NCBI GenBank assembly: GCA_902728285.1
Contig: CACVBU010000070.1
Span: 1 to 64,000, forward strand
DNA: 64,000 nucleotides
Direction of reading: 5' to 3'
Source of the DNA: Clytia hemisphaerica
Lineage: Eukaryota > Cnidaria > Hydrozoa > Leptothecata > Clytiidae
The position numbers were made by a program, and so were the translations under genes. The notes beneath the pieces are model-generated. The model had not been told where the DNA came from. It searched no databases and was given only the letters and a program-made list of their open reading frames with translations. Shown here piece by piece: positions 18,001 through 45,881 of this stretch; the first letter of the stretch is position 1, and the number at the start of each line of letters is the position of its first letter.

Positions 18001-21000
18001 CTTTTTCAGATTTTGCAAGAGAAGGTTGAAGTATCGATGGAGAATCTCAAAGTTCGCTACCGTGGCTGGGATCTCCATCATAGATATCTTAAAAAAACAC
18101 ACTTGAGATTTTTTTATATAAAACACTAGATAGAGCTAACTGCGTTTGTAAAGGCTCGCGCAAGCAAATTGTGACACTACCTTATCAAAGATGGCGCATA
18201 GTTTTGCTTCAGCTAAAGACAGAATAGCTACATCTAGTGTTTTATATAAGATATCTGTTATTCCCACACTTACCAGAACTGCGTTGACAAGCCATACCAG
18301 ATTAGTTGAAGAATTTGGAATGTCAAGGCTAAGCATATTGTGTGTTTCAAACCTAACGTTTTTATCAGCAGTGTCAACACTAGAGTCTGGAAACGAGAAG
18401 AAATATCACTTGCTATCATAAACGATCAATGACTGGACGACAGACGAGGATTAGACAATACGGTCGAAGCTCCATAACTCGAACACGCACGGAGAACTTG
18501 TTCGAGTTAACGAAATTTTGAGTCATAAGACATTGTTAACTGAAGGGACGAGAAAGCTTGTTCGAGTCAAAATAGAAAATTCGAGTTAAAGAGATTCGAG
18601 TTAAAAGAGACTCTACTGTATTGATATGAAATATGTGTCTGTAATGAAACGGAAACACTTATGTAAAAATATTCGAGAAAACTTCGAGTTATAAAAACCT
18701 TTAAAAATAAAATTCTATGAACACGTGAGGAAAACAATTTTGCAGAAATAGTCTGTGCCCCTCTGTTGAGGATATCGTATATCAAGGAGGTTTACGATTT
18801 TTGTTCAAAAGTGGATATCCAGGGGGGTAAAGTGTCTACAAAGGAGCGGATATCCAGGGGGTAAAGTGTCTTTCTAAGTAAAAAATACCATGTCCAGAAG
18901 TAAGCATCTTTATAAGAGAGGATATCCAGGAGGTTAAGCATATTTTAAGAGGATATCTAAGGTGTCTTAAATAATAAAGTAGGATATCCAGGGGGTTGGA
19001 TATTATCAATATCCTCAACAGTGGGGGTAAAAATTTTTCCTGGAAAAGTCCAATTCGGAACAACAGGTGGCAAAAACGAAAACGCTGGATCTCAAGCTAC
19101 AATCAGCGCCGAAATGTTCTTCAAAATTTAAAGGTTGGGTGAGAATAATTGCAGTTTCAGTATCTCACTTTGCTTTATTGGATTTTTCGATTTGGGAGGG
19201 ATTAAGTGGCTTCCAGGCTATATTCCCAGCCTTATTGGAACATTTTTGAGCTTTAAGATCCTGAGATCCTAAGATCCTAAGTGTTAAGTCTAATGTTACA
19301 ACTCAGAGTTAAAACTCTACTTCTAAACTGTACTTCAAAGCACTTAGGGATCACTTGGGTTTACAAAGTTTTAAGGGAATTCCCCTTTTTGTGCCAAATA
19401 TTTCGGCACTGATTCTAGATGAATGGCATTTGAAGATGACGGCGTCCTACCTGTACAATGACGGACAAAAATCCGACAACGGCGATGTAAATGGCGACTT
19501 CTTGTTGGTTGAAACCAATGGTCTGTAACGGGAAAGAAAAGTGGTAATTTAATGCTTGTTCAATAATTTATTACATTTTCCCGCCCTTTGCAGTAGTAGA
19601 CCTTATTTTTGAATTATTAGCACTTCTTTGATGCCAGTAACCATTAAAAAAAAACAGTTTTTATTTTTATAACTATTTTCTGGACAGGGATAATTCACAT
19701 TAGAACTTGATTTCTCGGATGACACCCAAATCCAGCTGGCAGTGACGGGGTTTGAGCCCATAACCTTCAGATTGTGAAATGGATGCTGACCTACATGGCC
19801 AAAAGATTATGTCGAATAAAAAACAAACAAAAAATCGTCGACAAGACATATGAAAACACCAACTTTCTTGACCGTAAGTGACATTATAAAACCATACTCG
19901 TCAATCAGAAAATTTGCCTTGTTTTATAATAGTCGAACGTGCGCACCGCACTGGGCTCAACTTCAGATTTTCCCGTTATTAAAAGGCCCAATTGTAACAT
20001 TTCAAATATTTAGTATTAGGTAGCAAATATACTTTGTCCGTTTTGGCTGAAACTCGTCCCCAGGCCCCAAAAATCAAAATTTTCAAAAAATGAAAAAAAC
20101 ACCCCCAGATATTCACCCAAGGAACATGTGTGCCAAATTTCAGCCAAATCCGACCTTTTTGAAGTGTCCAGGCTGCCAGCCTCGTTTTGGTGAAAAACTC
20201 GTCCCCAGGCCCCAAAAATCAAAATTTTCAAAAATGAAAAAAACGCCCCCAGATATTCACCCAAGGAACAAGTGTGCCAAATTTCAGCCAAATCCGACCT
20301 TTTTGAAGTGTCCAGGCTGCCAGCCTCGTTTTGGTGAAAAACTCGTCCCCAGGCCCCAAAAATCAAAATTTTCAAAAAATGAAAAAAACACCCACAGATA
20401 TTCATCCAAGGAACAAGTGTGCCAAATTTCAGCCAAATCCGACCTTTTTTGAAGTGTCCAGGCTGCCAGCCTCGTTTTGGTGAAAAACTCGTCCCCAGGC
20501 CCCAAAAATCAAAATTTTCAAAAAATGAAAGAAAACACCCACAGATATTCACCCAAGGAACAAGTGTGCCAAATTTCAGCCAAATCCGACCTTTTTTGAA
20601 GTGTCCAGGCTGCCCCAAAGTTTTAGCCTCGTTTTGGCGAAAAACTCGTCCCCAGGCCCCAAAAATCAAAATTTTCAAAAAATGAAAAAAAAACCCCCAG
20701 ATATTCACCCAAGGAACAAGTGTGCCAAATTTCAGCCAAATCCGACCTTTTTTGAAGTGTCCAGCCTGCCCTAAAGTTTTCGGACGGACATACATACAGA
20801 CAGACAGACAGACATACATACAGACATTCTCAGATTATAGCTCAACTGAAGTTGAGAATAGCTCTAGTTTAGACGGTCGACTTTTTGCTTTGCCAATTCC
20901 AATTCTTAGAATAGACAAATGGTTGGTAAAAAGTTAGTATAGTTAAAATCTTTGCTTGAAAAAGATTGACAAAAGTCATTGCATTGACGTCAAAAGAAGC

Positions 21001-24000
21001 CGGCCGATTCATTGACTCTAGAGACAGCAAACTTCCTGCCCGGTTTGATTTGCAATTGGAATGGGCAGACTAGCAGATAGCGGACCGTCTTAACCAGAGC
21101 TCAAATTGAGACCAAGATAAATGAAATGGGTAAATTGATGCTTAAGAGTGGGAGAGGTAGACTCGTAGGCTATTTCATGGTCGGAAAGAATCATGAGTAA
21201 TCAGCACAGATTGCGTCATCATAACAGCAAGACGCAAAAATATACAAAATTTGAGACCGATACAAAGTCGTTACCAAAGCCTTTTTTCAAGGTCGAAATG
21301 AATCATGGGTATTCAGGACTGATTGCGTCTTCATAACGGCTTCCCGTTGGCCAGACGCACAATAACGAAAAAAAAAATAGACCGATAGAAAGTCGTTACC
21401 AAAGCGCAGTGGTCCTAATTACCCATGATTCCTTTCAACTTTGAAAATGGCTTATGGGCGTCACTTACATGTTGTAGATAGAGAAAGATGCATGAATATT
21501 GTCCGGCTTCCGGCAAATAAGACAGAAAGATTGTGATACATAACAACAAGACCATTGGGTCATTACCAACTTTCCGCAATGACTGAAAGTAAGAAAGAAA
21601 GGAAAATATAATATAATACAGTGAACACTTGTTTATTCGAACTTCTATTATTTGAATTTTCTATAATTCAAACTTGTTTCCAGTTCCCGTCAAGGAGAAA
21701 CCCTCATAAAATACTTTCTATAGTTCGAATCGCTCTGTATTTCGAACAAATAACATTCCTCGTTTAAGTTCGAATTAGCGAGAGTGGACTGTATCTAACC
21801 GATGTCAAACAAAGGAAAATTTGCTTGTTGTTAGCCGCAACAAAGTGCACTACCAGAGGGAACCCTATAATAATTATCTACCGTAGATTTTGTAATGAAA
21901 AGACGAAGAACTCATTTTTCAAATCTTAAAAACTTCTCTTGGAAACTTTGCGATGATTATTTTCATAATGTCATGGAATTTAAGCCACAGTGATCTATTA
22001 TCTGATACTGTGATGGCGGATTGGCGGTAGGTACACTTTCAGTGCATTTTCTCTTGATTTACCCAACCCTTATAGTGCACTATATTCCCCAGCTGTAAAT
22101 CTGCGTGAAAGAAGAAGCTTAAGAAATTTTTCAAAGAAAAACTAAGAAAATTATTCTTGTCAGCTGTAATTGTAATTAGAGTGCATTTTGGGACGCTGAA
22201 AAACCCCACCCTTAAGCGCGGCACATGATGTAGGCCAGATCATATGAGTGCCCCCGGGCCGTAAAGGAGCGGGCCAATTTCCCATCGGAGAGGAATGATA
22301 GTCGGCATGTGATATGCATGAACCTAAGTCAGGTTCATCTTCAGTAGAAAGTATTTCATCATACCGGGACCCTTTTATGTAACCCACTAGTTGTCAAACA
22401 ATTTTTGATATGCATAAGTCAAGATTACTTATCGATGATTATCTATCGGAAACGCCCGAAGAAACTAGAATTTGACCCCTGTGTATCACTAAAAAAATAT
22501 AGAAAAACAGAGATCAAATTCCTTCCAGATTTTTCGGGTGTTTTTGATAGGAAAAATTATATAATCTGACTTAACTTAACTTAGGCGCATGAGAACGCCG
22601 AAAAAATGATTGATGACCAAACACACCTATTTTTGGGCAAAAATTAAGTTTATATATGACGGCATTTTATTCATACCGATGGGTCTAAACGTGGTCTACT
22701 AAAACTGAATTTATCCAGAGAATAAGAGCGTCAAAACTAAAGAAACTGTAATACATAGAATTGTTATTTATACAATCTGATATTACCCCAAAACAATTAC
22801 TGTATTATCATATAACACCCATACTACTGTATTACACGGATTATAAACGATTCCAGTCTACTTCTCCTGGTTCATTATGTATACATATTTGTCAAAAGTG
22901 TTGCAAAATAAATTATATTATAATGAATTTGTGAATTGTTCTCTGGTGCCTAAGATACACGCTTTTTGATAAGAATATACTTTATAAGAATATCCATGAT
23001 GAAATTGGCCAAAAAAATGAAGAATACCACCAGCCGAAAATCTTTCATTCTCGTAAAGAGTTTTCTTCGTTGGATGTTGCTCGAAACATAGCTTTGATTG
23101 AATCTCGAAAATCTTTCATTCTCGTAATGCAGATTATTGGGTTGGCGATAGTAGCCACGGGCATTGGTAAGTAGAAAATAAATCTCAAGGAAAGTTTGTC
23201 TTTTATGGTGTGTTTTGTATAATACATCCCAATGCAAAAATCTGTAACCATGATGAAAATGATGACAATAAGTTGTGTCAGAAAGATCAGTTTACACGTG
23301 CTCAAAGCGCGTTTTTCATTTTCTGCGTTTTGATTGGACGAGGCCGATACAATAAGGGATTCTGATTGGTTGTTACCATTTCTCCGCGTTTTTAACGCGT
23401 TTCGAACGCGGTTGTATATAATCGAAAGCGTTACTGTAACAATAAGACTAATTACGGCATTGATGATGAGAGTTGGTAGCTTGTCTAAGAAAAATAAAGT
23501 GATAGTCATCAAAGCTAGCACCCATACGATTCCAATGTAATACAAGAAGTGTTTTGTTGAGATGTTCCCTCGGTAGACGATCGGATCAGTTATTGCTTTG
23601 TACCGATCGTAAGATAAACATATCGTTGTGAAAAATCCGGCGTTTAGGATCGGGGTTCCTATATACGACACAAGGTTCAAAGTACGGAATAACTTCTGGT
23701 CATCAAACGCCAATGAAGCGTATGACGTCATCGGAAAGCATACAAAACTAGCTGCAAGGTCACACATACACAGATGAATTAACAAAAAATTGAACATTTT
23801 TCGAAGCCTTTTGAGAGGATCCTTGATAACTGCCGAAATAACCAATGTGTTTAAAACAATACTGATGATTGCTGCGAAACCGAAAATTGCTCCGATGGAA
23901 TACTTGAATAAGTTGAAATTCATTTTATGAGCTCTACACAGCAGCGACGATGTCCTCTTATTTGTAGTTGGTTAAATTTTGTAGACGAGAGCTCCCAAAG

Positions 24001-27000
24001 CACAAACAGCTTCTCGTGTGAATTCTCACCACAGCAAATTAATTTTATCAAAATAGAATTTGTCAAATAGTGAAGACGTTTTTGTATCTAAGCATCGAAA
24101 TAGAGCTCTCAAAGCACAAACGGCTTGTCATGTGAATTCTCATAATGACAAATTAATTTTATCAAAACAGAGTTCCAAAACCACAAATAGCTTCTCTTCT
24201 AAATGCTTGTATCATAATAAGAAGTAATGTATGCAAGTGAAATCTTGCAATGGTTTGTTGGGGAAAAACAAACAGCTAGCACAATTTTGTTTATATCAAA
24301 TTACCTTGTACAAACATTCCATTTTATCTTCTATAACCTTAGTCTAGCATGCTAGAAAAAATAAGCTAAAGATATTGCAAGAGATGAATTGTTGTTGTTA
24401 CAAACTGATATTATCCCGTAACAATGATATTACATATTATCCGTAGTCTGCATGTCTGTTTTCTGTTTTCTTTCTGTGTATCACTTTCGTTTTCGCAAGC
24501 AATATTTTTGTTCTCGAAAAGTTTGTTTTGATTGACAGATCGGATAGAGCCTGGTTTAGACTTTATACAGCCTTTGTTTTGAAACTTAAGACCCGTCTAC
24601 ATTTAGTAATTCTAATTTTAATGCCTAGGTTTGCCCGACCCTTTATTTTCCTCTTTTCTTTTTTTTGAAATATTTTCGAATGTATTTAACGATCGCATTT
24701 ATTAATGACATTGGGCAAACAAATTCCTTTTATAGAAAAGAACATTTCAAATGTACAGGGTGTCCCTAATAAAAGTATCGAGTTTGAACATGCGATTGAG
24801 TAAAAAAGTTTGTGTGTGTTATCGCTAAAATATAAGAACGTTCTCCATCACATAGGATCATTACAAAAGGTAGTTACAACGTATAAATTAATCAATAGCC
24901 CTTTTACTATTCCCCTGTTGCATAAATGTACGTCTTTAAAAATCAAAATTAATAAAAATTCAAATTCCCTCGTTTTACTTTTTTATTGTTCCATACATTC
25001 CATTTTTACTATTTTCATAGTTTTACATACGATTCTTTACTAACATGTTTTAATTGTTGCGTTTTTCTCATGATCGTAATTTCGTTGCATTTGTAAACAG
25101 GCAGAGTATGTTTTTATTGTTACGCAATGACAATACACACTTAAAACTTTCTACTCAATCGCATGTTCAAACTCGATACTTTTATTAGGGACACCCTGTA
25201 TATCAAAACCATGGCTCAAAACATAAAAGTTGGTTGAGCAATAACAGCATTCAAAGGGCGATAAAAACCAAGAGAAAAAAATTAGTCAACCTCTTTCTTC
25301 ATATAAAAACATTCAAGTGGTCGATACTGTTAATCCTTTGACTGCTATTTATATGTTTTAAGGGTGTGACCTATTTGCCACGTAAAAAAAATGAAGGTTC
25401 GATCTATTTGCCAGATCTTGGCAAATGCCGACATTCAACTTTATTTTCTTTGAGTTGAAATATGTATAATTATGAAAAACATCTTTGAAATATATTTAAA
25501 TTATTCAACTGTGCTATTTAATGAAATCTAGTTCAACATCGAACTTTCAATAAACATTAAAAAAAAACTCTGGCAAATAAGTCCAGATCTTTGTTGTCGG
25601 CAAATGGCGACACTGGCAAAGAAATTGTAAATTCTTTTTTCGGCATACACCGACAGCGGCACGGAAAGGGTACGTGATTTTACATGTTTAAATTCAAAAA
25701 TTTATGACAAGGGTTTAAAAAAAGCAATTCAGAATAGTCTTATTTTATTTTTCTTTATTGGATAAAAACAAAGAGTTGCACTTGTGGCTTCTTTGCTTTT
25801 TCATGAAAGAATTATCATTTTATTCATTTCACTCCTCTACCATGTTGCTCTCAAGTTTTAACAAAAAATCGCGTCACCGAGAAAGTACACAATCCAAATA
25901 TGGTTAAAAGATAAGACAACCGGGGAGGGATAGGGTCAAACTTTGATTTTATTTGACCGTGCTTTTAAGCCAGCTTCAACATCCGAAAGACTTTTAATGT
26001 GTTCAGCTACAGCTTAACAAGCGTGCGACACCGGGTACCGGCTAGTTAATTCAATGTGTTCAGCTACAGCTTAACAAGCGTGCGACACCGGGTACCGGCT
26101 AGTTAATTCTCATTATGCTAAGCATTTAGAAGAGAAGATATTTGTGATTTGGAACTCTGTCTCGACAGAATGAATTTGTCGTTAAGAGAATTCACAAAAA
26201 GAAGCCGTTTGTGCTTTGAGAGCTCTATTTCGATGCTTAGATACAAAAACGTCTTCACTATTTGACAAATTCTATTTTGATAAAATTGATTTGGTGTGGT
26301 GAGTTTTTCAAATTTTTGTTGTGCTTTATTTTGATTTTTGGAAACAACAAGACGTCTGCAAAATTTAACCAACTACAAATAAGAGGACATCGTCGCTGCT
26401 GTGTAGAGCTCATAAAATGAATTTCAACTTATTCAAGTATTCCATCGGAGCAATTTTCGGTTTGGCGGCAATCATCAGTATTGTTTTAAACACATTGGTT
26501 ATTTCGGCAGTTATCAAAGATCCTCTCAAAAGGCTTCGAAAAATGTTCAATTTTTTGTTAATTCATCTGTGTATGTGTGACCTTGCAGCTAGTTTTGTAT
26601 GCTTTCCGATGACGTCATACGCTTCATTGGCGTTTGATGACCAGAAGTTATTCCGTACTTTGAACCTTGTGTCGTATATAGGAACCCCGATCCTAAACGC
26701 CGGATTTTTCACAACGATATGTTTATCTTACGATCGGTACAAAGCAATAACTGATCCGATCGTCTACCGAGGGAACATCTCAACCAAACACTTCTTGTAT
26801 TACATTGGAATCGTATGGGTGCTAGCTTTAATGACTATCACTTTATTTTTCTTGGACAAGCTAACAACTCTCATCGTTAATACCGTAATGAGTTTTGTTG
26901 TCACAGTGGGGCTTACAATTATATACAACCGCGTCTGGAACGCGTTAAAAACGCGGGGAAATGGTAAGACCCAATCAATTGTATCAGCCTCGTCCAATCA

Positions 27001-30000
27001 AAACGCAGAAAATGAAAAACGCGCTTTGAGCACGTGTAAACTCATCCTTCTGACACAGCTTACGGTTATATTTTTCCTCATGGTGACAGATTTTAGTATC
27101 AGGATTTACTATGCAAAACATACTTTCCAACCCAGTCTTTCCATGAGATTTCTTTTCAACCTACCAATGCCCGTGGCTGCTATCGTCAACCCAATAATCT
27201 GCATTACGAGAATGAAAGATTTTCGAGACTCAATCAAAGCTATGTTTCGAGCAACGTCCAACGAATACAACTTTACGAGAATAAAAGATTTTCGAGACTT
27301 AATCAGAGCGAGTACAACAATTTACGAGAATGAAAGATTTTCGAGACTCAATCAAAGCTATGTTTCGAGCGACATCAAACGTAGACAACTCTTGACAGGT
27401 TCAAGGAAGCAGAAACTTAAATAGATTGGAAGTACATTTTATAAGAACATCTAAAATTTTGAAAAAGCCTTCCTATAGGCTAATTTTTGAGTTTTAAGCC
27501 TAAAGATATTCTTTAAAATATTCATTTTCATGATATCATAATTTTTCACTATTTGGTTTTATTATATCTATATTTAGAGTCCACATATCCTTAAAACGTT
27601 CTGAACTTATTCTTAATGTTTTGACCAGCGAAGCGTTATGTTCTTATAAAGTTATATAAAACTTATAAAAAAACAATGAGCTCTAGAATAAAACTTACAC
27701 TAAAGGGGTCTTAAATGTTCTTAACTTGTTCTTAATGTTTTGACCAGCGAAGCTTTATGTTCTTATAAAGTTTACTTCTTATAAAAAAACAACTGAGCTC
27801 TAGAATAACACTTACACTAAAGGAGTCTTAAATGTTCTTAACTTGTTCTTAATGTTTTGACCAGCGAAGCTTTATGTTCTTATAAAGTTTACTTCTTATA
27901 AAAAACAACTGAGCTTAAGAATAGCACTTACACTAAAGGAGTCTTAAATGTTCTTAACTTGTTCTTAATGTTTTGAACAGCGAAGCCTTATGTTCTTATA
28001 AAGTTATATAAAACTTATAAAAAAACAATGAGCTCTAGAATAAAACTTACACTAAAGGAGTCTTAAATGTACTTAACTTGTTCTCAATGCTTTGACCATC
28101 GAAGGGTAATGTTCTTACAAAGTTATATAAAACTTATAAAAAAACAATGAGCTCTAGAATAAAACTTACACTAAAGGAGTATTAAATGTTCTTAACTTGT
28201 TCTTAATGTTTTGACCAGCGAAGCTTTATGTTCTTATAAAGTTTACTTCTTATAAAAAAACAACTGAGCTCTAGAATAACACTTACACTAAAGGAGTCTT
28301 AAATGTTCTTAACTTGTTCTTAATGTTTTGACCAGCGAAGCTTTATGTTCTTATAAAGTTTACTTCTTATAAAAAACAACTGAGCTTAAGAATAACACTT
28401 ACACTAAAGGAGTCTTAAATGTTCTTAACTTGTTCTTAATGTTTTGAACAGCGAAGCCTTATGTTCTTATAAAGTTATATAAAACTTATAAAAAAAAATG
28501 AGCTCTAGAATAAAACTTACACTAAAGGAGTCTTAAATGTACTTAACTTGTTCTCAATGCTTTGACCATCGAAGGGTAATGTTCTTACAAAGTTATATAA
28601 AACTTATAAAAAAACAATGAGCTCTAGAATAAAACTTACACTAAAGGAGTATTAAATGTTCTTAACTTGTTCTTAATGTTTTGACCAGCGAAGCTTTATG
28701 TTCTTATAAAGTTTACTTCTTATAAAAAACAACTGAGCTCTAGAATAACACTTACACTAAAGGAGTCTTAAATGTTCTTAACTTGTTCTTAATGTTTTGA
28801 GCAGCGAAGCATTTTGTTCTTACAAAGTTTACTTCTTATAAAAAGCAACGTGTGACAAGAATAAAACTTACACTAAAGGAGTCTTAAATGTTCTTAACTT
28901 GTTCTTAATGTTTTGAGCAGCGAAGCCTTATGTTCTTACAAAGTTTACTTCTTATAAAAAAACAACGTGTGACAAGAATAAAACTTACACTAAAGGGGTC
29001 TTAAATGTTCTGAACTAATTCTTAATGTTTTGACCAGCAAAGCCTTATGTTCTTATAAAGGTTACTTCTTATAAAAAAGCAACGTGTGACAAGAATAAAA
29101 CTTACACTAAAGGGGTCTTAAATGTTCTGAACTTGTTCTTAATGTTTTGACCAGCGAAGCCTTATGTTCTTATAAAGGTTACTTCTTATAAAAAAACAAC
29201 TGAGCTTAAGAATAACACTTACACTAAAGGGGTCTTAAATGTTCTTAACTTGTTCTTAATGTTTTGACCAGCGAAGCCTTATGTTCTTATAAAGTTTACT
29301 TCTTATAAAAAAACAACTGAGCACTAGAATAAAACTTACACTAAAGGAGTCTTAAATGTTCTTAACTTATTCTAAATGTTTTGAGCAGCGAAGCCTTATG
29401 TTCTTATAAAGTTTACTTCTTATAAAAAAACAACTGAGCACTAGAATAAAACTTACACTAAAGGAGTCTTAAATGTTCTTAACTTATTCTAAATGTTTTG
29501 AGCAGCGAAGCCTTATGTTCTTATAAAGTTTACTTCTTATAAAAAACAACGTGTGACAAGAATAAAACTTACACTAAAGGGGTCTTAAATGTTCTTAACT
29601 TGTTCTTAATATTTTGACCAGCGAAGCCTTATGTTCTTATAAGGTTTACTTCTTATAAAAAACAACTGAGCTCTAGAAAAACACTTACACTAAAGGGGTC
29701 TTAAATTTTCTTAACTTGTTCTTAATGTTTTGACAAGCGAAGCCTTATGTTCTTATAAAGTTTACTTCTTATAAAAAACAACTGAGCTTAAGAACAAAAC
29801 TTACACTAAAGGGGTCTTAAATGTTCTGAACTAATTCTTAATGTTTTGACCAGCAAAGCCTTATGTTCTTATAAAGTTTACTTCTTAAAACAATGAGCTC
29901 TAGAATAAAACTTACACTGAAGGAATCTTAAATGTTCTTAACTTGTTCTTAATGTTTTGACCAGCGAAGCCTTAGAGCTCAAGAATAAAACAATGTGCAA

Positions 30001-33000
30001 GAAGAATAACAATTACACTAAAGGAATCTTAATGTTTTGACCAGCGAAGTCTTATGTTCTTATAAAGTTTACTTCTTATAAAAAAACAACTGAGCTTAAG
30101 AATAAAACTTACACTAAAGGGGTCTTAAATGTTCTGAACTAATTCTTAATGTTTTGACCAGCAAAGCCTTATGTTCTTATAAAGTTTACTTCTTAAAACA
30201 ATGAGCTCTAGAATAAAACTTACACTGAAGGAATCTTAAATGTTCTTAACTTGTTCTTAATGTTTTGACCAGCGAAGCCTTAGAGCTCAAGAATAAAACA
30301 ATGTGCAAGAAGAATAACAATTACACGAAAGGAATCTTAATGTTTTGACTAGCAAAGTTCTTATAAAGTTCAAGAATAAAACTTACACTAAAGGGGTCAG
30401 CTTTTTCCCACGGAATGGACTTGCCCCACGATACTGGTCTCAATCTTTCAGGAAGAGATTCAGGAACACAAACCAAGATGAATAACATATCCAATAGAGC
30501 GATAGCTGTTGCCAAGGCGACCACCACAGAGTCGGAATATACGGTACCAAGGTAAGCGCCCAATGCTGGGCTTGTGATGAGGCTTGCTGCAAATGTAGCT
30601 GAAACCTGAAATTGAGAATAAAAATAAAGATTACTTTCTTCATTCAAATATTAAGCGCCAGTTTTTTTAAGAATGGGGCAGTTTGGGGCAGTTCCAATAG
30701 TTTGAAACTAAGAAACTTTGCCATCAACCTTTCTACCCTTAAATACTTAGAGATCAGTCCAAAAGTACAAAATATTCCTAAACATTTCCTTCTCTTTGGA
30801 TAATTTGAACTTTGGGCTCATTTAACTGCATTTAAGAGCATAAACAGGTTAATAGCAAAATTGTTTTATGGGGTTGGTAAAGTTTACCTTTGAAGATTTG
30901 AGAGTTTAGAAGCACATTTTGACAGACTTGATCCTTAAATGGTAGATCAGGAGGTAAAGATCTTGATGAAAGTTTGTACTATCCCCATGAAACTTTCTAA
31001 AAACCAAGATTTCATTGTCTTAGGGGGCTCCTTTTCTGTTCAATCTTGAGCAAAAATTGTTGTTTTGAGCAGCATTGTCAAGATTTTTAGGATTTTAGAG
31101 TTAAGACGGACTTTGAGCTAGCCCTAATCTTTAAAACAAAGGAAAAGGTTCCAACTTCTGATAAATTGTTGCACTATCTATAGGATGCTTTCACAAAATC
31201 AAGAATCAAGTATCAATGGATACTCATTTTTGGCAAAAATTTCAGCCAAAAATGTACTTTAAGGTCAATTTTACAAAATTAAGGGGGTCAGGGGAGTTAG
31301 AAGCTGCCTTTGAGTGAAATTTCAGCTTCTATAAACTTCCAAACAGTACCATATTTGATTTTCCTAGAAACCTTTCTGGAATGTGATGAGGAATCATGAT
31401 GTTCAGATGAAATTTATTTTCTAACTGCCAATTACTGGCTGCAATGGAATGACCTCAGCTCTAGTCAAAAAATTGAAAAAAAAGCCTTTTTTGCCCAAAA
31501 AAGGACATTTTGACAACTTTTTTCACCTAGTTTCATTGTTTTTATATTAAAGATTCATCATAGCCCTTATATTATAACAAAGTCAGTGATCTAGACCCCT
31601 TTGAAGTTTGCCAATGGACCAAAATATCCCAAATTTTAGTCATTTTTCGAGCGATGTTAAGAAAAATTTTAAATCAAGATTAAAAATTTATGGTAGGAGA
31701 TCACATAGGTTTCTCTTTTGATCCTAAGAGACCAGGGCGGTTGTCTTTCAGGAACAGAAGAGTTAGAGGTCAGACAATGTTGGGATTTCAAGGAGAATTG
31801 GGCTAAAGTTGATACTTTCTTGAGACCTAATTGGCTTTCCGGGCCTCTAGGGGGCCAGTAGGATCATTTTTTATCGCAATCACTTCAAATGGATAGACAA
31901 GGGACTGAACTACCAGAAATTATTATTTTGAGCAGTAACAAACTTCCCTGGGACAGGTCAGATGGCTCTAAAATACCCCTAAAATCAAATTTGTAGTGTT
32001 TTTGTGACGTTATAACTCCAGCTACCATTTTGAGAATTTTGATTTTTTTTGAAAACTGTATAGTTTACTGGCCATAGTTTCAGAATCACCAAAAACCAAT
32101 TCCTCATTTTTATTTGAGAAAGCATGGTTCTATATCAAAAAACTTTTTTTAAGTGCAATGCCCAAAAATGTCAAAAACTTCAAATTGGCATAAATCCGCC
32201 ATTATGGATTTTCAGACCAACATATTTTGGGATTTTACTTCATTCGTTGTACTTAAAAACATATCCAAAAATGAAAAAAATTTAAGTTTCAAACTATTGG
32301 ACCTGCCCCGCTCTTAAAAAAACTGACTCTTAAATTTCAAGTTTTATTTGAAAGGCTTGTTTAGTTTGATTGATGAATCACTAAATCTTAATTTTTCTTA
32401 CCATAGACTAATATTTAGATTATGCTAGGTGACTATATTTAGTATATAGTATTTTTGTATGTATGTAGAGTTATATTTGAACAATTTTCAAATTCTATCT
32501 TGCTTTCATCATTTCACATGGAGCTTTTTTCATAACTTACGTCTAGCTTACTCTAACGTTTCTGTGACAATTGCTTCGTATTTTGGTCGATTTTTCCGAC
32601 AAATTTGTTTTGTTTTATAAACTTTTTTTTAATAACATTATTTATTAATTTAATATTTTAAGGGATAAGAACCATTGTGCAATATGGAGCCCGAAGTATG
32701 TTAAACTAGGTCACAGTGTGGATCTAAACCACACTGAAACGACCGCCTTCCATCACGCATCACGCTCGCGAAAGAGCGGGTGCACATTATTAACGCCTAC
32801 ATGTCATCTCCAGTACATTTTAGATTATTCATTGAAAACAGATTACAATATAGTCATTTTTCATGTCTCGATTATTCAATTCCGAATAAAAGACATTCAG
32901 CGAAAAAAAAGAGAAACACCTGGGTAATCTAGTTAAAAAAACCGAAAGTAAATGGCAGACAAAGTAATGAGCCAAGGCAAAACGAGATTAGCGTACCACT

Positions 33001-35274
33001 ATGAAAGAAACCGCCTCCGGCGGTCGATAAAAGATAAATAAAAGATAAATAAAAAAATTAAATTGAATACAAGCTTTTTTTTAAGAACAAGTAAATTTTG
33101 TTCCATGCTGGGTTGTTCTCAATTTTTTGAAATTTTCAGGCTTAAATGTTCTTTAAGATATTTTTAACACGCTCAGTTTATCTACTTAAAAACTTGAAAT
33201 GAGTTTAAAATTTGGTAAAATCAGTACTTTCTAAGTAATTTCTGGAATCTGAGGTTTAGAATTGTTCTTAATTTGTTCTAGGGTTTTGGCCATTTTTCAG
33301 CCTTGTGTTCTTATAAAATTGTTATGATGAAAAAAGTCGTGTAGCTCACCAGTCCATAAGCGTGACTTCTGTCTGATTTATCCGTACAGTCAGCTACGTA
33401 AGCGAAGACGATGGAAAAAGTGACCGAAAACGTCCCAGAGATTGATAAACATGCGAAGAACCACCTGCAAAAATAAACAAAAATAGATTGTCAAGAATTA
33501 ACGAATTATAAATGATAGATTCGGGTTGAAACGACGGAATACACTGTGGTCACTAGTCGATACGATACTCTCGCTTATTCAAATCGAACAGGGAATCTTA
33601 TTTTTTCGAATTACACGGAGTATATCAAGAGGGTTTCTTCTTGGCCGGGATTGAAAATAAGTTTAACGTATCTCATGAAACTCTGAGTTTGAAACAAAGA
33701 TATTGTGTAACTCTTTATTATAAGTTCGAATTATAGAAAGATTCGAATAATAGAAGTTCGAATAAGCGAGAATCTACTTTTATGCCGACACATCTCTGGC
33801 AAATATGTCGAACCTTGCCACAATCCCGGACAAAAGGTTTGTAGAAAAATCCGCTCCCTTCAATGTTGTTTTGGTGTAAGTTGTGGTTATGTCGTGGGAC
33901 GATCAAAGCAAGATTACTACTTCAACATTGAAGGGATAGGGAGAGGAATTTTGGCCATTTCAGAGAATTTCTTTTTCAATTTTGAAAAGTCTACAACCTT
34001 TTGTCCGGGATTACAGACAAGGCTTTGAAAGTCTTACCATGGGTTGAATCTCAACAGTGGTATGGGAACACATGTGAAAAAAACAGTCAGTAGTAAAAAT
34101 GACTTTCGTCCCCAAACGTCTGATAGGGCACCGATCAATGGCGCCGACAGGAAAGAGAGGAAACCCTAAAAAAAAAAAGCATAAAATCATATTATTATCA
34201 TGTTATTTGACCCTACTTCTATCACGCGGTTTCTTGATGTCGCATCTTTTCGAAAATCTCGAGAAAAATGTGCACCCGTCTGGGACAAGCTATATGTTAT
34301 TTCGAAAAGCTCTTTTAAGATAACCCTGTGTCACAGACCCGGTGGACTGGAAAATTCGGCCAAAATCTCTTCCCCTGTGAGAAAAATACCCTACAATTTT
34401 ATCCCCACTGGCAGGTTGATTTTGATTTCATCATTTGAAATTTAATGGAAAAAGTTGCAGTCCAAAACCATAAACTTTTTTTCTCGAAGCACGAAACTAA
34501 ATATATTTCACATCAACAAAATTCCGCGAATCGGCCTCTTTTTCACCCAATTTCTTTTCATTTCCGTATATGGGTTTTAGTCAATTTTGGAATATAAACT
34601 TTTCGGGAGAAAAAATTTTCCCGAATAACGACAAAATACATTAAAACCGTGAAATTTAATCCATTTGTGATGTAATGATGATGGTGTGGACATACCTTTA
34701 TTCCTTGGATGATACCATTCATCAGGAAAGTGTTTTCTGGAAATGTTTCCGCCAAGACCTATGAAGAAAGATACAGAGAATTGTCAGTTTCAAAGCAGCG
34801 ATGGCTGAGTGGTTAAGGCCTCAGTGTCCGAAACCAGGGGTTCCTAGTTCGAATCCCCCACACCTTCCAATGTTCCCCATCTTCAGTTCATAGATAGCCA
34901 ATCCGGCTGGTGGCGGCTCACCACAATCGAAAGACTGTCGTAAAATATCTACATAAAATATAGACTAATTCAACTTCTGACAAAAGGTTTACCGAATTTT
35001 CATTAACAAAACCAACTTACGGTAATTGAAGGCGATGTTAACTATCCCCAAGCAAAGAATTCTTATCAATTCTTTGAGGGTTACGAAGAAGATATAAAAA
35101 CCAACGACCACACTTACCAGTGTCTATTACATTGGTTTTGCTACCGTCCCTTATTTATAACAAAAATCAACTTACGGTAATTGAAGGCGATGTTAACAAT
35201 CCCCAAGCGAAGAATTCGAGGAAGATGACGACGGTGGCATGATAAACACTAGGTCTGTCCATAACATCGATCGG
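9066..35274 (-). CDS. MFSD14: MFSD14 (HIAT1-like) MFS transporter, 11 coding exons
   Basis: Minus-strand exons, 5' to 3': 35274-35176, 34758-34696, 34165-34038, 33464-33350, 30605-30387, 21582-21469, 19522-19451, 18386-18274, 13269-13172, 11624-11422, 9302-9066. All introns are GT-AG, all phases agree, and the total is 1,461 nt (486 residues plus stop), matching the roughly 490 residues of human MFSD14A. Family landmarks follow in order: RPSVYHATVVIFLEFFAWG (TM1), FLMNGIIQGIK, the MFS motif-A loop GALSDVWGRKS after TM2, VSATFAASLITSPALGAYLG, LSYLPEAGQYS, QILQLIWYG, MMWAAG, TGIRGLCNGMGPALYG and PGPPFLFGAC, then an acidic cytosolic tail. It is a 12-helix membrane carrier related to bacterial tetracycline transporters; the natural substrate of the family is not settled. 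The true start is open: a first coding exon may lie upstream (a good acceptor precedes 35274), or ATG at 35262 may serve. The introns host the GPCR pair and many repeats. Confidence 0.95.
9411..9790. repeat. G-run-rich interspersed element
   Basis: Many runs of 5-10 G. It begins GATCATCCCCCCAGGAAGA, and the same opening occurs inverted at the right end of 52405-52722 (CGTCTTCCTGGGGGTGGAT), so this is a dispersed family. The long overlapping frames on both strands are compositional. Confidence 0.5.
9897..10195. mobile_element. TTAA-flanked MITE with GGGCTCTGACCATAG ends, copy 1
   Basis: Flanked by TTAA at 9893-9896 and 10196-10199. Ends are GGGCTCTGACCATAG and CTATGGTTAGATCCC. The inside shares a decayed coding-like stretch with the larger inverted copy at 10531-11242. 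Confidence 0.8.
10531..11242. mobile_element. TTAA-flanked element with GGGCTCTGACCATAG ends, copy 2
   Basis: Flanked by TTAA (10527-10530, 11243-11246), with clean ends GGGCTCTGACCATAGT and CACTATGGTCAGAGCCC. It is 712 bp, in the opposite orientation to 9897-10195, and keeps a longer minus-strand frame (about 11289-11008). That frame has an acidic stretch (KFDEEETEDFCEEEYFNF), broken in the smaller copy; it may be a transposase relic or a captured fragment, which I cannot identify. Confidence 0.75.
11748..12105. mobile_element. MITE with TACCTTATCGGGGAAAA ends, copy 2
   Basis: Perfect short ends TACCTTATCGGGGAAAAAAA and TTTTTTTCCCCGATAAGGTA. Related to 3848-4176. Lies in the intron between MFSD14 exons 11422-11624 and 13172-13269. 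Confidence 0.8.
12230..12506. repeat. Inverted repeat spanning a spurious frame
   Basis: Left arm GTTTAACCACTGACCTTTAT...CCTGGACCAAGTTAT (from 12230) pairs with right arm ACTTGGTCCAGGGATATATA...GGTCAGTGAGTTTAA (to 12506). The 165-codon plus frame at 12229-12726 runs through this structure and has no domain signature. Confidence 0.6.
12778..13077. mobile_element. MITE with TACTCTTAGGTTCCAAATAA ends
   Basis: Left end TACTCTTAGGTTCCAAATAA followed by ACG and a C-run, mirrored at the right end (CGTTTATTTGGAACCTAAGA). C-rich stretches alternate with AT-rich ones inside. Confidence 0.75.
13396..14350. mobile_element. Tandem-repeat element, Helentron-associated-like, copy 1
   Basis: About five tandem units of about 157 bp (starts near 13500, 13657, 13815, 13972, 14127), each containing TCGTCCCCAGGCCCCAAAAA and CAAAATTTCAGCC. 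Left of the units is GTCGAACGTGC...GGCTCAACTTCAG. To the right come a CA/CAGA microsatellite and the hairpin CTCAACTGAAGTTGAG, whose arm is the inverse of the left-end CTCAACTTCAG. Subterminal inverted motif, central minisatellite, microsatellite and terminal hairpin together resemble DINE/HINE elements (non-autonomous Helentron relatives); this assignment is inference. The long frames here encode only repeat translation. Confidence 0.7.
14643..14880. mobile_element. MITE with CTAATAAACGTACA ends
   Basis: CTAATAAACGTACAGTA at the left and TGTACGTTTATTAG at the right form the terminal inverted repeat; GAATAAACGTACAGG and AATAAACGTACATG lie just inside. Confidence 0.65.
14881..16818. other. MFSD14 intron, mostly featureless
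   Basis: Intronic sequence with an ATTG microsatellite near 15025-15069, a short inverted pair AATAGATTTACC / GGTAAATCTATT at 15664-15722, a CG dinucleotide run at 16420-16429, and a degraded inverted-repeat element near 16549-16630 with TCTCTAATTCGA. No gene seen. Confidence 0.4.
16823..17877. mobile_element. Non-autonomous TTAA-flanked element (piggyBac-like), copy 2
   Basis: 1,055 bp between TTAA at 16819-16822 and 17878-17881, nearly identical base for base to 4538-5570 apart from small indels, which points to recent mobilisation or exchange. It lies in the same intron as the next MFSD14 exon (18274-18386), about 400 bp away. Confidence 0.8.
18461..18618. mobile_element. pogo/Tigger-like MITE
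   Basis: Ends CGGTCGAAGCTCCATAACTC and GAGACTCTACTG, with TTCGAGTTAA repeated inside; flanked by TA. It belongs to a family with CAGTG-type ends and TTCGAATTA cores seen at about ten places in this window. It starts only 75 bp beyond an MFSD14 exon. Confidence 0.5.
18745..19045. repeat. Short-period repeat element, GGATATCCAGG motif
   Basis: GGATATCCAGGGGG recurs five or six times with GTAAAGTGTCT between copies. Left CCCCTCTGTTGAGGATATC mirrors right GATATTATCAATATCCTCAACAG, and the right border TTTTTCCTGGAAAAGTCC resembles the end of 48364-48636. Confidence 0.5.
19932..20859. mobile_element. Tandem-repeat element, Helentron-associated-like, copy 2
   Basis: Same architecture as 13396-14350: left end GTCGAACGTGC...GGGCTCAACTTCAG, five units of about 145-155 bp with TCGTCCCCAGGCCCCAAAAA, then a CAGA/CATA microsatellite and the hairpin CTCAACTGAAGTTGAG. 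Units differ from copy 1 in the middle (AGATATTCACCCAAGGAAC instead of GGGATTTGCCCAAGGATC). The 267-codon minus frame here is a translated repeat, not a gene. Confidence 0.7.
20860..21101. mobile_element. MITE with AGCTCTAGTTTAGACGG ends, copy 2
   Basis: Left AGCTCTAGTTTAGACGGTC, right GGACCGTCTTAACCAGAGCT. It abuts the hairpin of the preceding tandem-repeat element directly. Confidence 0.65.
21619..21791. mobile_element. pogo/Tigger-like MITE
   Basis: 173 bp, CAGTGAACACTTGTTTATTC ... GCGAGAGTGGACTG, flanked by TA on both sides. TA target duplication with CAGTG ends fits the pogo branch of Tc1/mariner. It sits 36 bp upstream of an MFSD14 exon (21469-21582) on the transcribed strand. Confidence 0.6.
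21792..22939. other. MFSD14 intron with undefined repeats
   Basis: A relatively GC-rich patch at 22190-22370 (CCCCCGGGCCGTAAAGG) looks like part of an interspersed element I cannot name. An inverted pair TATCGGAAACGCCCGAA / TTTCGGGTGTTTTTGATA brackets 22443-22552. No gene seen. Confidence 0.4.
23045..23923 (-). CDS. Class A (rhodopsin-like) GPCR, copy 1
   Basis: Intronless 292-residue receptor. Seven hydrophobic segments are visible. TM1 has the conserved Asn (SIVLNTLVISA), TM2 the conserved Asp (HLCMCDLAAS), TM3 ends in DRY (SYDRYKAI), TM4 has its Trp (GIVWVLALM), and TM7 carries NPIIC in place of NPxxY. There is no Cys at the usual top-of-TM3 site and no CWxP in TM6, so this is a divergent orphan receptor whose ligand I cannot infer. 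A short charged third loop contains RRNGNNQSE and ENEKRALSTCK. The tail is MKDFRDSIKAMFR and ends early at a TGA created by the repeat at 23045-23110. It lies in an MFSD14 intron on the same strand and forms an inverted pair with the gene at 26417-27424. Confidence 0.9.
   Translation of the reverse strand: MNFNLFKYSIGAIFGFAAIISIVLNTLVISAVIKDPLKRLRKMFNFLLIHLCMCDLAASFVCFPMTSYASLAFDDQKLFRTLNLVSYIGTPILNAGFFTTICLSYDRYKAITDPIVYRGNISTKHFLYYIGIVWVLALMTITLFFLDKLPTLIINAVISLIVTVTLSIIYNRVRNALKTRRNGNNQSESLIVSASSNQNAENEKRALSTCKLIFLTQLIVIIFIMVTDFCIGMYYTKHTIKDKLSLRFIFYLPMPVATIANPIICITRMKDFRDSIKAMFRATSNEENSLRE
24756..25198. mobile_element. Tc1/mariner-like MITE with CAGGGTGTCCC ends
   Basis: 443 bp bounded by TA, with inverted ends of about 45 bp: CAGGGTGTCCCTAATAAAAG ... 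through ACATGCGATTGAGTA, mirrored at the right. It sits in the spacer between the GPCR inverted repeats. CAGGGTGTCCC ends with TA duplication are typical of mariner relatives. Confidence 0.75.
25996..26109. repeat. 57 bp direct tandem duplication
   Basis: Two adjacent, essentially identical 57 bp units, each starting AATGTGTTCAGCTACAGC and containing GACACCGGGTACCGGC. Lies at the spacer/right-arm border of the GPCR inverted repeat. Confidence 0.8.
26417..27424 (+). CDS. Class A (rhodopsin-like) GPCR, copy 2
   Basis: Intronless, 335 residues; the first 150 residues differ from the other copy at almost no position (L for F in TM1). TM5, the third loop and TM6 differ clearly (for example TTLIVNTVMSFVVTVGLTI). 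It keeps SYDRYKAI and NPIICITR and, like its partner, lacks the TM3 Cys and the CWxP motif. The tail is longer, because three copies of one DNA repeat are read through: RMKDFRDSIKAMFRATSN, then RIKDFRDLIRA, then, in a shifted frame, ENERFSRLNQSYVSS. It runs opposite to the host MFSD14 gene. Ligand unknown; probably a plasma-membrane sensory or peptide receptor by family only. Confidence 0.9.
   Translation: MNFNLFKYSIGAIFGLAAIISIVLNTLVISAVIKDPLKRLRKMFNFLLIHLCMCDLAASFVCFPMTSYASLAFDDQKLFRTLNLVSYIGTPILNAGFFTTICLSYDRYKAITDPIVYRGNISTKHFLYYIGIVWVLALMTITLFFLDKLTTLIVNTVMSFVVTVGLTIIYNRVWNALKTRGNGKTQSIVSASSNQNAENEKRALSTCKLILLTQLTVIFFLMVTDFSIRIYYAKHTFQPSLSMRFLFNLPMPVAAIVNPIICITRMKDFRDSIKAMFRATSNEYNFTRIKDFRDLIRASTTIYENERFSRLNQSYVSSDIKRRQLLTGSRKQKLK
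27434..27660. repeat. Dispersed element with TTATAAGAACAT ends
   Basis: Starts TTTTATAAGAACATCTAAAA and ends in TTCTTAATGTTTTGACCAGC...TTATAAAACTTATAAAA. Related copies with the same opening and closing phrases occur at about 33062-33345, 37645-37905, 38632-39000 and 40520-40790. The right end supplies most of the 117 bp unit of the adjoining array. Confidence 0.55.
27597..30386. repeat. 117 bp minisatellite carrying reiterated splice-donor sequence
   Basis: About 24 head-to-tail units of about 117 bp run up to the 5' splice site of the MFSD14 exon 30387-30605. On the minus strand each unit contains GACCCCTTTAGTGTAAGT (variants GACTCC, GATTCC). That is the last 12 bases of that exon (DPFS codons) plus the intron's GTAAGT. 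The rest of the unit matches the right end of the dispersed element at 27434-27660. A block of four units (about 470 bp) is itself duplicated: CTTTGACCATCGAAGGG at 28090 and 28560. A few units near the exon have mutated donors (GTAATT). Confidence 0.9.
30659..32325. mobile_element. 1.67 kb non-autonomous TIR element
   Basis: Ends CAGTTTTTTTAAGAATGGGG and its counterpart at 32290-32325 (CTGCCCCGCTCTTAAAAAAA), with TCCAATAGTTTGAAA next inside on both sides. No open frame above about 60 codons, so it has no transposase. Lies in the MFSD14 intron between exons 30387-30605 and 33350-33464. Confidence 0.7.
32326..33349. other. MFSD14 intron
   Basis: AT-rich intron. 32700-33010 has a slightly GC-richer patch (CATCACGCTCGCGAAAGAGC) and an AAAGATAAAT triplet repeat at 33028-33055 of unknown nature. 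From about 33062 a copy of the TTATAAGAACA dispersed family begins. No gene seen. Confidence 0.4.
33561..33777. mobile_element. pogo/Tigger-like MITE
   Basis: Left TACTCTCGCTTATTCAAATC mirrors right TTCGAATAAGCGAGAATCTA, with TTCGAATTATAGAAAGATTC inside; same family as 21619-21791. The outermost bases are degraded. Confidence 0.5.
33824..34010. mobile_element. MITE with TCCCGGACAAAAGGTT ends
   Basis: TCCCGGACAAAAGGTTTGTAG at the left and CTACAACCTTTTGTCCGGGA at the right; inside, CTCCCTTCAATGTTG pairs with CAACATTGAAGGGA. Ends about 28 bp from an MFSD14 exon (34038-34165). Confidence 0.7.
34322..34470. repeat. Partial copy of CACAGACCCGGTGG element
   Basis: CCCTGTGTCACAGACCCGGTGG opens a stretch with AAATACCCT, TTATCCCCACTGG and TTGATTTCATC, in the same order as the fuller copy at 35760-36039; no clear right end. 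Confidence 0.5.
34795..34867 (+). repeat. tRNA-Ser-derived sequence (SINE head or tRNA relic)
   Basis: GCAGCGATGGCTGAGTGGTT matches the 5' part of a eukaryotic tRNA-Ser (box A TGGCTGAGTGG), with CGA in anticodon position and box B GTTCGAATCCC. The 3' acceptor strand complementary to GCAGCG is missing, and the anticodon stem is poorly paired, so it is not a working tRNA. A tRNA-derived SINE is the likeliest reading. Intronic, opposite to MFSD14. Confidence 0.6.
35012..35062 (-). pseudogene. Partial duplicate of an MFSD14 exon with its splice donor
   Basis: About 50 bp repeats the 3' half of exon 35176-35274 and its GTAAGT donor. The copy changes the Leu codon in FAWGLL to TAG and has lost the 5' half and acceptor. 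It lies about 110 bp downstream (in transcript order) of the real exon. Confidence 0.7.
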
Positions 35275-36566: not shown

Positions 36567-36757
36567 TACACCTTTTCGACCGTAGTCGCGCGGTCAGGTG
36601 CGTGTCACTTTTATCCCACTAAACTCGATCCAATCCTTTTTTGACACATTTTTCTATTGTCTATAGGTGCGAAAAAGGACTGGGACGGTTTAAGTGGGAT
36701 AAGGCGGACAAAAAATGCCCGCGCAGCAATTGGCATATATACGGTCGAAAAGGTGTA
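36567..36757. mobile_element. MITE with TACACCTTTTCGACCGT ends, at the lectin A promoter
   Basis: Clean ends TACACCTTTTCGACCGTAG and ACGGTCGAAAAGGTGTA. Its right end is 55 bp before the start codon of the lectin gene at 36813. The element contains CATATATACGG at about 36734-36743, a possible TATA box. The intact counterpart of 6017-6418. Confidence 0.8.
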
Positions 36758-36812
36758 TTTAAGTTTTGAATCTGTTGAAAGTGAAAAAAAAGATCTAGTA
36801 GCATCAAGTAAA

Positions 36813-39800
36813 ATGGATAGTAAAATGGATGGTTTCATGGTCCCTATATTAAACCATATAATTCTCATTGCAATATTCATCAGCTTAAAATGTGGGTCCG
36901 CTAACGCTGGAGCTCCACCAATCCCAGGGTTTGGAGATCCACCAATACCAGGGTCTGGAGCTCCACCAATACCAGGGTCTGGAGCTCCACCAATACCAGG
37001 GTCTGTTGCCCAGACTGAAGTTTCAATCAACAACAAGACTACCGAATTGTATCTGCGAAGCGCAAAATCCTTCAGTGGAACAAAAATCAAAATGGTAGCT
37101 GGTGTTTACATGGTAACTGAGTGTGTTTTGTTGTGCGAGAAAGATGAAAATTGTGATTTCTCTGTTCTTGATGATATGCAGAATTGTATATTGTACTCTA
37201 CCGAGACAAACAACAAAACTACAGACCAGAATACTACAGACATAAATGTTGGTACGGACACGCAGATGGTGTGCTCAAGTGTAAGTGAAAAAATATCACA
37301 TTTTAAAGGCGTTGGCGCAATGCAACATGCTCCATCTCACCAACCTGAAACACTTTCACGTGTCTCCACCCCATTTTTCTTTTAATAACATTTGTTGTTT
37401 CTCTCACTTTTGTCCCAGGGACAAAATCAGCGAGTCTTTTGAGTATTTCCCTCACTTTTTGTCCAATTAAACAAAAAAAGAAACCATGAGACACGCACTT
37501 TTTTCTTGTATTGGTGGGATGGAGCATGTTGCATTGCACTAACGCGAAAAAACTTCACTTAAGCCTTAACTCTCTTGAAATTTTTAACCTAGCACAATAT
37601 GAAAATAGCTATTCTTTACCTGCGTACCTTGCTTTTCAGACTGATATACGTTTTTTATAAGAACGTCCAAAATTTTTAAAGTCTTCCAATGTTCTTAACT
37701 TTTTGAGTTTCAAGGATAAAGATTTTCACCATTTTGTGAGCATTTTGAAGCAATTTCTTAAGAAATTGGGTGTTTTAGAGTTCACAAAGCCTTAGTAAAA
37801 TGTTCTAAGTTGTACTTAATCTTTTGGCCATCGAAGACTTATGTTGTTACATAGTTTGTTCTTATAAAAAACATGTAGTGTATTTTTTTGAAAGCGGAGT
37901 GCACGTTTTTTTATAAGAACAAACTATATAAGAACATTTTTGCTTCGATGACCCAAATGTCAAGAACAAGTTAAGAACATTTTAGGGCTTTGTGGCCACA
38001 AAAAAACCCTTTTTCTTAGGAAAATAGTCAAAAAATACTCACGAATTGGTCAAAATAAAAACATGTTTTTAAGAACATTTTTATGCTTGGTAAGAAAAAT
38101 AACAAGTTTTATTTTTATTTTCAGTAAAAGCTTTTCGTTAAAACCATCTTCAGTGCTAGATGTTAAAAAAGTAAATGAAATTCAAAAAAGATACACTAAA
38201 TACATTATTGTACAAGGTGACGTAAAATGTTTTAAAAATCTGTAAGGTTTTGTTAAGAGAACTTCTTATTGACGGGGACTTGACGTTAGTTCGAATTACA
38301 GAGAAAGATTCGAATTAGCGAGAGTTAGCTGTTTCCACACTTTAGGTTGCTTTCAAAAAGCGTTCGGATTCGACCACCTTCGACAAAGCATCAACAACCA
38401 AATTCTGCACAGCAAAATATTCCTACGAAACTGACGGGTGTTACAACAAGTGTGGTGGCAAAACAGGGTGGTGTACAAAATATTGTGGCGTTAACAAGGC
38501 GTGTTGTAGGGCGCACATACCAGAGCAAGGCGATGAAGGAGAATGTGCTATTTTAAATAATGGATATGATGGCAACCACAAGTGTATGTTGGGTGTCAGT
38601 AAGCATTTCACTTTTTATTTATACTTTTTAATACACGTTTTTTTTATAAGAATAGTATACTTTGAATGAGGGTCAAGTATTCTTAAGAAATTGCCAAAAT
38701 TGAGGGTGAAATATTCTTAACGTATTCTTACTTTTTCAGACTTGACTTTTTTACAAACACGAGAAATGACCATTTTGAGAGTTTTGGACTTTTGAATGAA
38801 CATTTGGAGCTAAAATTACATTTCTACCTCAAAGTTTAAATTTATCTCTAATAAAGGAAGCAGTTTTTTCTGTTAACCAAATACAAATTGAATGCATTCT
38901 TATCAAATTCTGTGAAATTCTTCTACCCATTCTTAGGGTATTCTTAGGGTATTCTTACGATTTGGCCAATTTTCACTCTGATATTCTTATAGCGTGTAAT
39001 GGGATAAAATTTTGCGGGGATTTCATTTCGTGGACTGCACTATTGGGTGACAATATTTTTTAAGATTTTATGTCCCCTCCTTTTTTCGGGAGCATTTTGG
39101 GTAAAATACGGACCGTTCTGTAAAATACCAACAAAACAAGATGTTTCAGTGGTCAATATCTATCACATTTCAACTCGGAAGCGCTTGTAGTTTTTGAGAT
39201 TCGGTGGGGGATGAGGGGTCAACGTTGAGATTCGGTGGGGGATTAGGAGTCAACGTTGAGATTCGGTGGGGGATGAGAGGTCAACGTTGAAAATCGGCGG
39301 GGGATGAGGGGTCAACGTTGAGATTCTGTGGGGGATGAGGGGTCAACGTTAAGATTCGGTGGTGGGGGATGAGGGGTCAGCGTTGAGATTCGGTGGGGGA
39401 TGAGAGGTCAACGTGAATATTACAGACTGGTCTGCAAAGTACTTAAAACTAATTGGACAGAATTTTTTATATTAATTATTTGTGATTATGTTAAACAAAT
39501 CAGCCTCAGAAAACAAATACCATTCAAATTGACTGATCCGATCACCCAATACATGACTTTCAACAAATTTACATACGGGTCTGTAAAATACCAAACGGAC
39601 AGGTGGCCGAACCGATATTTTGTTATCCATATCTATCACTTGTCAAAATGTCAAGGGCATAACACTTGTCAATTTTTAGATTTTAAGCTTACCCTAATAG
39701 AAAAAAATAAGTTACTATTACTCATATTTCACAAAAAAATCATAATCGAAAAATTCAAAATAACCAAGCTATTTTTTTATCATTTCGTAGCATACGGGGA

Positions 39801-45805: not shown

Positions 45806-45881
45806 CAAAATATTGAAATCTAAAGAACACTTTAAGAACATATCTACTTTAGGCTTAAAACCCAAAACATCAACTTTTTAG

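Follow-up and report, generated by a model that had tools for sequence, protein, structure and literature searches.

An exon of the MFSD14 (HIAT1) gene of the hydrozoan Clytia hemisphaerica is followed, within its own intron, by 24 tandem copies of its 5′ splice site. The array lies on the minus strand of contig C54, in a window of 64,000 nt to which all coordinates given here refer; two other contigs of the assembly, C62 and C128, also carry the locus. The repeated unit of ~117 bp consists of 12 bp of the exon edge, the donor, a short intron stretch and ~80-90 bp from the start of a dispersed element that resembles a miniature inverted-repeat transposable element (MITE). The array is probably a donor-bearing intronic minisatellite, with a variable number of tandem repeats (VNTR), that arose from the insertion of the MITE-like element followed by tandem duplication, and of which the first donor is used whilst the array has little or no function. 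The features concerned are as follows.

30387..30605, minus strand: MFSD14 exon of 219 nt (VSATFAAS...WEKADPFS), the end of which, ...KADPFS, is encoded by ...GCTGACCCCTTTAGT; found by tblastn (77% over 73 amino acids).
30381..30386, minus strand: true 5′ splice site, GTAAGT.
21469..21582, minus strand: next MFSD14 exon (SLRKVGNDPM...).
27594..30398, minus strand: array of 25 units found by gapless tiling, the first being the exon's last 12 bases with the true donor; 23 units with GTGTAAGT.
27711..28651, minus strand: recent block duplication (28651-28182 and 28181-27711), a four-unit block of 470/471 bp with 1 substitution and 1 gap.
27435..27673, minus strand: full-length MITE-like element closing the array, found by nhmmer and genome search; its first ~80 bp recur in the units.

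The exon, recognized with a human MFSD14A sequence as the tblastn probe, terminates in GACCCCTTTAGT and is directly followed by GTAAGT. A Clytia database protein (the gene model P0001) has the identical peptide end and continues with SLRK across the true junction; its DPFS-SLRK fits this donor together with the acceptor CAG|TCATTGCGG at 21582. The joined MFSD14 query matched P0001 at 93% over 99% of the query, which lacks at least one exon that P0001 has. The intron that hosts the array is ~8.8 kb long, and the one on the other side of the exon ~2.7 kb.

An earlier note on this DNA had described about 24 tandem copies of the exon's own 5′ splice site, and this number is confirmed: 24 intronic units extend without gaps to ~27594. 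Some 20 consensus donors were said to follow the true one; GTGTAAGT is intact in 22 units (the intact decoys) and altered to GTGTAATT in the remaining two. On the minus strand of the window, GTGTAAGT occurs 23 times, each time within the array, which rules out a chance origin of the junction copies; the plus strand has three occurrences, outside the array. The proposed spacing of ~117 bp holds for the 19 of 25 units that measure 116-119 bp and not for the six nearest the exon, which are shorter (62, 101, 111, 96, 101, and 111 bp); Tandem Repeats Finder reported 20.4 copies of 117 bp between 27594 and 29974. The units also repeat the exon-terminal bases, as had been claimed, but the exact 12 bases are found in only 8 of the 24 intronic units; the remaining units have near variants of them. 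The 12-mer starts with GACCCC in 9 of 25 units (exon included), with GACTCC in 10, with GATTCC in four, and with TACTCC in two. Thus, the array is a minisatellite in the sense of head-to-tail units of tens to a few hundred bp, and it is of the type of the 6-16 minisatellite discussed below, i.e., its units carry a consensus donor and the first of them stands at the exon-intron border. Since a four-unit block of 470 bp is repeated with only 1 substitution and 1 gap, the array continued to grow until recently.

The contigs represent two versions of the locus. C62 is 99.7% identical to the window over 38.7 kb, and its array aligns with that in the window over 3.17 kb with no substitution and 2 gap columns. 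C128 is collinear, in reversed orientation, with positions 1-40850 of the window; the 19 aligned pieces that reach 500 bp or more, four of them from the array, add up to 25.1 kb at 94.3% identity. The C128 exon has 96% identity, with unchanged last bases, and, like that on the window contig, it is open; the C128 array consists of 5 units, all five with GTGTAAGT. We read C54 and C62 as one haplotype and C128 as the other, so that, with allelism derived from the 94% collinearity, the unit number would vary between alleles, i.e., 25 (C54 and C62) versus 5 (C128), as is typical of a VNTR. The first array unit lacks the same stretch in the window and on C128; therefore, the array is probably older than the split of the two versions. 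The presence of C62 at 99.7% over 38.7 kb alongside C128 at 94% suggests that the assembly holds unmerged haplotypes.

Long tandem arrays may be misassembled. However, the decoy units differ among themselves (mean pairwise identity 88%), two contigs, although of uncertain independence, agree over the 3.17 kb, and a third one carries a shorter array, all of which makes an assembly artefact most unlikely. An array present on a single contig only is ruled out by the further contigs that carry it.

The earlier note had placed a dispersed element at 27434-27660, and such an element is indeed present, with its borders mapped at 27435 and 27673. In a genome search with this copy, 40 of 973 first-look candidates were scored; among the matches listed, the element was found at at least 72 places, at least 37 of which, on 36 contigs, are beyond C54, C62, and C128. 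Thirty element loci were fetched, including 23 copies outside these three contigs. The element is about 220-255 bp long, and the outside copies typically start near TTTTTTATAAGAAC and finish near GTTCTTATAAAA. Its ends lie near CACGTTTTTTTATAAGAAC and GTTCTTATAAAAAAACGTG, frequently next to TA. Such a short dispersed family with terminal inverted repeats corresponds to a MITE, and these properties point to a MITE-like DNA transposon. Several copies read TACACGT...ACGTGTA, which, as judged from filled sites only, is compatible with a duplication of a TA target site; perhaps, the element is of the TA-targeting kind. Four array units have kept CACACGTTG ahead of a T-run, which we take for the outer end of the element. 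Elsewhere in the window, two adjacent copies in opposite orientation are located at 37653-38089, and a weak copy at 33260-33343 on the minus strand, which was not among the nhmmer matches, apparently begins 6 bp downstream of the donor of another MFSD14 exon.

Whether the donor came from the element or from the exon is answered by the distribution of the exon edge. A 26-base pattern of exon edge and donor, searched with up to three mismatches in the 417-Mb assembly, was found at 56 places, i.e., 25 on C54, 25 on C62, five on C128, and one on C508, and its reversed control at none. As 55 of the 56 matches are at the MFSD14 locus, the exon is the source of the repeats, and the array has not spread. 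The upstream sequence displayed for the 23 outside copies does not show the exon edge; at one locus (L022), GTAAGT directly precedes the element. A donor segment that is part of the dispersed element is thereby ruled out, and the proposed origin, a dispersed element joined to the exon edge and then amplified in tandem, is supported: the family is dispersed and MITE-like, and the donor segment lies outside it. At the junction between the element (TTTAAG) and the exon (GACCCC), one base, G, is common to both, as read by eye. In the reverse order of events, the repeat would have come first and the exon edge would have been recruited from it, as in an introner-like origin of the donor. The GTAAGT at L022 would fit such an order, and so would the weak element copy behind the donor of another exon (33343; blastn E 3e-5, noted by eye). 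It is nevertheless barely plausible, as the exon-edge sequence was not found with other element copies and as protein comparison showed DPFS or DPFN at the matching position in Hydra, Hydractinia, and one further relative. Likewise, the element is not an introner in the sense of an element that itself constitutes a new intron with its own splice sites: the donor segment was not found with other copies, and the host intron measures 8.8 kb.

The anatomy of the unit and the presence of 25 versus 5 units are observed, and from these we infer the following order of events. A MITE-like element would have inserted downstream of the donor of the MFSD14 exon, at a distance of less than 40 bp. Next, a tandem duplication that began 12 bp before the exon end and reached ~80-90 bp into the element would have created a ~117-bp unit that contains a whole 5′ splice site, and later unequal exchange and block duplication may have altered the unit number. 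In the transcript, U1 could presumably bind any copy. If the exon is paired across itself, between its own 3′ splice site and the nearest donor, the first donor would be used and the copies would leave with the intron. Indeed, when human minigenes carried two identical CAG/guaagu donors and had 365-nt introns on either side, splicing went exclusively through the upstream one (PMC9225289). By analogy, pairing of an exon between long introns with the nearest donor would explain why the array is tolerated.

The rare use of an intact copy would yield an mRNA with an early stop. The earlier note had claimed that any decoy would add in-frame stops, and this holds for all intact ones. When the exon is read on into the intron, an in-frame TAA starts after 63 nt in the window and after 54 nt on C128, and the first intact decoy follows at 163 and 91 nt, respectively; all 22 intact decoys in the window and all four on C128 are located downstream of the in-frame stop. 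The exception is the first altered unit (GTGTAATT, start 30336), which lies just ahead of the stop in the window and the use of which would produce a frameshifting extension of 62 nt. As to function, a splice-site buffer, a retention or decay switch and tolerated junk had been offered. Among these, tolerated junk is favored because the two versions have 25 and 5 units with intact exons, and because the database protein contains the true junction. Nothing in this sequence analysis shows a role as buffer or switch.

Several observations weigh against a tolerated array of which only the first donor matters. To begin with, the donors are well preserved. Among the 28 decoys from both versions that formed the rows of a Fisher test, 26 keep GTGTAAGT; one of the eight octamer columns is variable versus 53 of 108 columns elsewhere (one-sided p 0.047). 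Other choices gave p 0.138 (GTAAGT alone), 0.119 (9-mer), and 0.064-0.17 (without the seven recent block copies). By parsimony on 30 rows, including the two true copies, the octamer shows one change in eight columns versus 0.90 per column elsewhere, and 2.5% of random column sets are as conserved. The octamer is also the least-changed of 108 contiguous eight-column windows, which a neutral array need not show. When C128 is left out, seven of 101 six-column windows, including GTAAGT itself, are at least as conserved as GTAAGT. As the rows are related by descent and probably also by exchange between units, the case for selection on the donor columns is suggestive but not convincing.

The same conservation would be expected if the array served as a U1 platform, with extra U1 at the downstream copies strengthening the true donor or shielding the long intron from premature polyadenylation. 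In a study on human PAH exon 11, U1 bound downstream of the natural donor aids exon inclusion (PMC5933811), and the 26 decoys with GTGTAAGT on two contigs fit in with such a role. Exon skipping rose, however, when the PAH site was moved away by up to 36 nt, whereas the first intact decoys of MFSD14 are 163 or 91 nt away. The unit number of 5 versus 25 and the statistical weakness of the conservation also argue against a platform, which we consider very unlikely. That the copied donors are intact because they work, by forming a row of U1-binding sites of adjustable length that supports the true donor or safeguards the 8.8-kb intron, is decidedly unlikely; if it were true, the range from 5 to 25 units would be a natural dosage series within one species.

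The splicing rule on which tolerance would rely has its own limits. It is human, genome-wide it is only partial, with the upstream donor used in 60% of the cited competition events, and it was tested with two donors versus 23 here (PMC9225289). In the PAH work, the downstream U1 site was itself spliced in 4/30 and 1/30 clones, and it was spliced as well after relocation to +24 to +54 (PMC5933811). Because of this low-frequency use, the decoys need not be silent, and some use of them would be no surprise. Furthermore, the allelism of the two versions is read from collinearity, and C128 might in principle be a paralogue.

The units could, finally, be taken for pseudoexons: a T-rich AG is present in all 24 inter-donor gaps, and in 20 of the 24 one is located 80-83 nt ahead of the next donor. 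In a regulated retention or decay switch, decoys or array pseudoexons would be used in some cells to give early-stop transcripts and a lower MFSD14 output, for which the position of the intact decoys downstream of the in-frame stop would also be suitable. Yet stops are expected in AT-rich intron sequence, and most candidate array acceptors end with AAG, whereas the 10 inspected acceptors of the gene end with CAG or TAG (seven at the printed border and three after shifting the border by one to three bases). Such a switch is, therefore, very unlikely. Recursive splicing through CCTTTAG|TGTAAG also seems unlikely, since, judged by eye, a single base separates the AG from the GT and there is only a short pyrimidine tract.

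The array is not the only place in MFSD14 where an exon end has been copied into the adjoining intron. The second case is smaller.

35158..35217, minus strand: last 42 bp of the upstream MFSD14 exon (which ends at 35176), donor ACC|GTAAGT and 18 bp of intron.
35004..35062, minus strand: decayed copy of this exon end and donor within its own intron, matching at 93% over 60 columns and containing an in-frame TAG; present on C128 as well.

The copy sits 155 bp downstream of the original on both versions, and no similarity was found beyond it, down to 34700. Among 108 local pairs of direct repeats in the window, including those of the array itself, it is the sole pair outside the array with GTRAGT in both copies.

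A minisatellite published in 1995 is said to belong to the 6-16 (IFI6) gene and to comprise about 26 copies of a 12-bp unit at an exon border, of which the first repeats reportedly act as alternative donors. The title of that paper has a minisatellite providing multiple splice donors in an interferon-induced human transcript (Nucleic Acids Res 1995, 23:1854, via PMC2572611). As far as this title tells, it is the closest precedent of the donor-bearing minisatellite in MFSD14, in that tandem units supply splice donors. In contrast, the MFSD14 unit, of ~117 bp, derives for the most part from a transposon, and an in-frame stop precedes every intact copy except the first. Tandem repeats and satellites that derive from transposons also draw their amplified unit from a dispersed element (PMC6947457; PMC9659126), but the MFSD14 unit additionally holds a donor and 12 bp of coding exon. 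Intron gain by tandem genomic duplication similarly involves a duplication adjoining splice-site sequence (PMC4974935); here, no new intron is apparent, and an existing one was lengthened and its donor multiplied. Like the U1 enhancer in PAH intron 11, the decoys are donor-like intronic sequences behind a natural donor; PAH, however, has a single site close to the exon, and MFSD14 has 4 (C128) or 22 (window) intact decoys, which begin at a distance of 91 or 163 nt (PMC5933811). Thus, multi-donor minisatellites and tandem repeats grown from transposons appear to be known already. For the combination of a MITE-like seed with 5- and 25-unit versions, no precedent was found in the open-licence literature, the nearest being the title of 1995.

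For splice-site choice, the locus amounts to a natural experiment: one exon is followed by 4 or 22 intact donor copies, and the question is whether the first donor is always taken. With two versions in one assembly, allele-specific RNA reads could provide the answer without any construct. The array also illustrates one route by which a transposon beside an exon ends up multiplying a splice signal.

Searches of the window revealed no Rfam family at the gathering score and, with ARAGORN, no tRNA. Similar reading frames on the plus strand at 36645-37382 and 45859-46317 match the PAN domain slightly under the Pfam cut-off and are perhaps duplicated genes; frames near them presumably resemble C-type lectins, by a motif, with no Pfam match for the one tested. 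Between MFSD14 exons, two more arrays are present at 13498-14282 and 20050-20780, with units of ~157 and ~144 bp and AAACTCGTCCCCAGGCCCC common to both. Within the intron that hosts the donor array, an inverted pair of ~1.2 kb, at 23035-24227 (minus strand) and 26103-27294 (plus strand), is 90% identical. Each copy holds one reading frame for a receptor of the rhodopsin type (Pfam 7tm_1), and matching stretches are found on C128 too.

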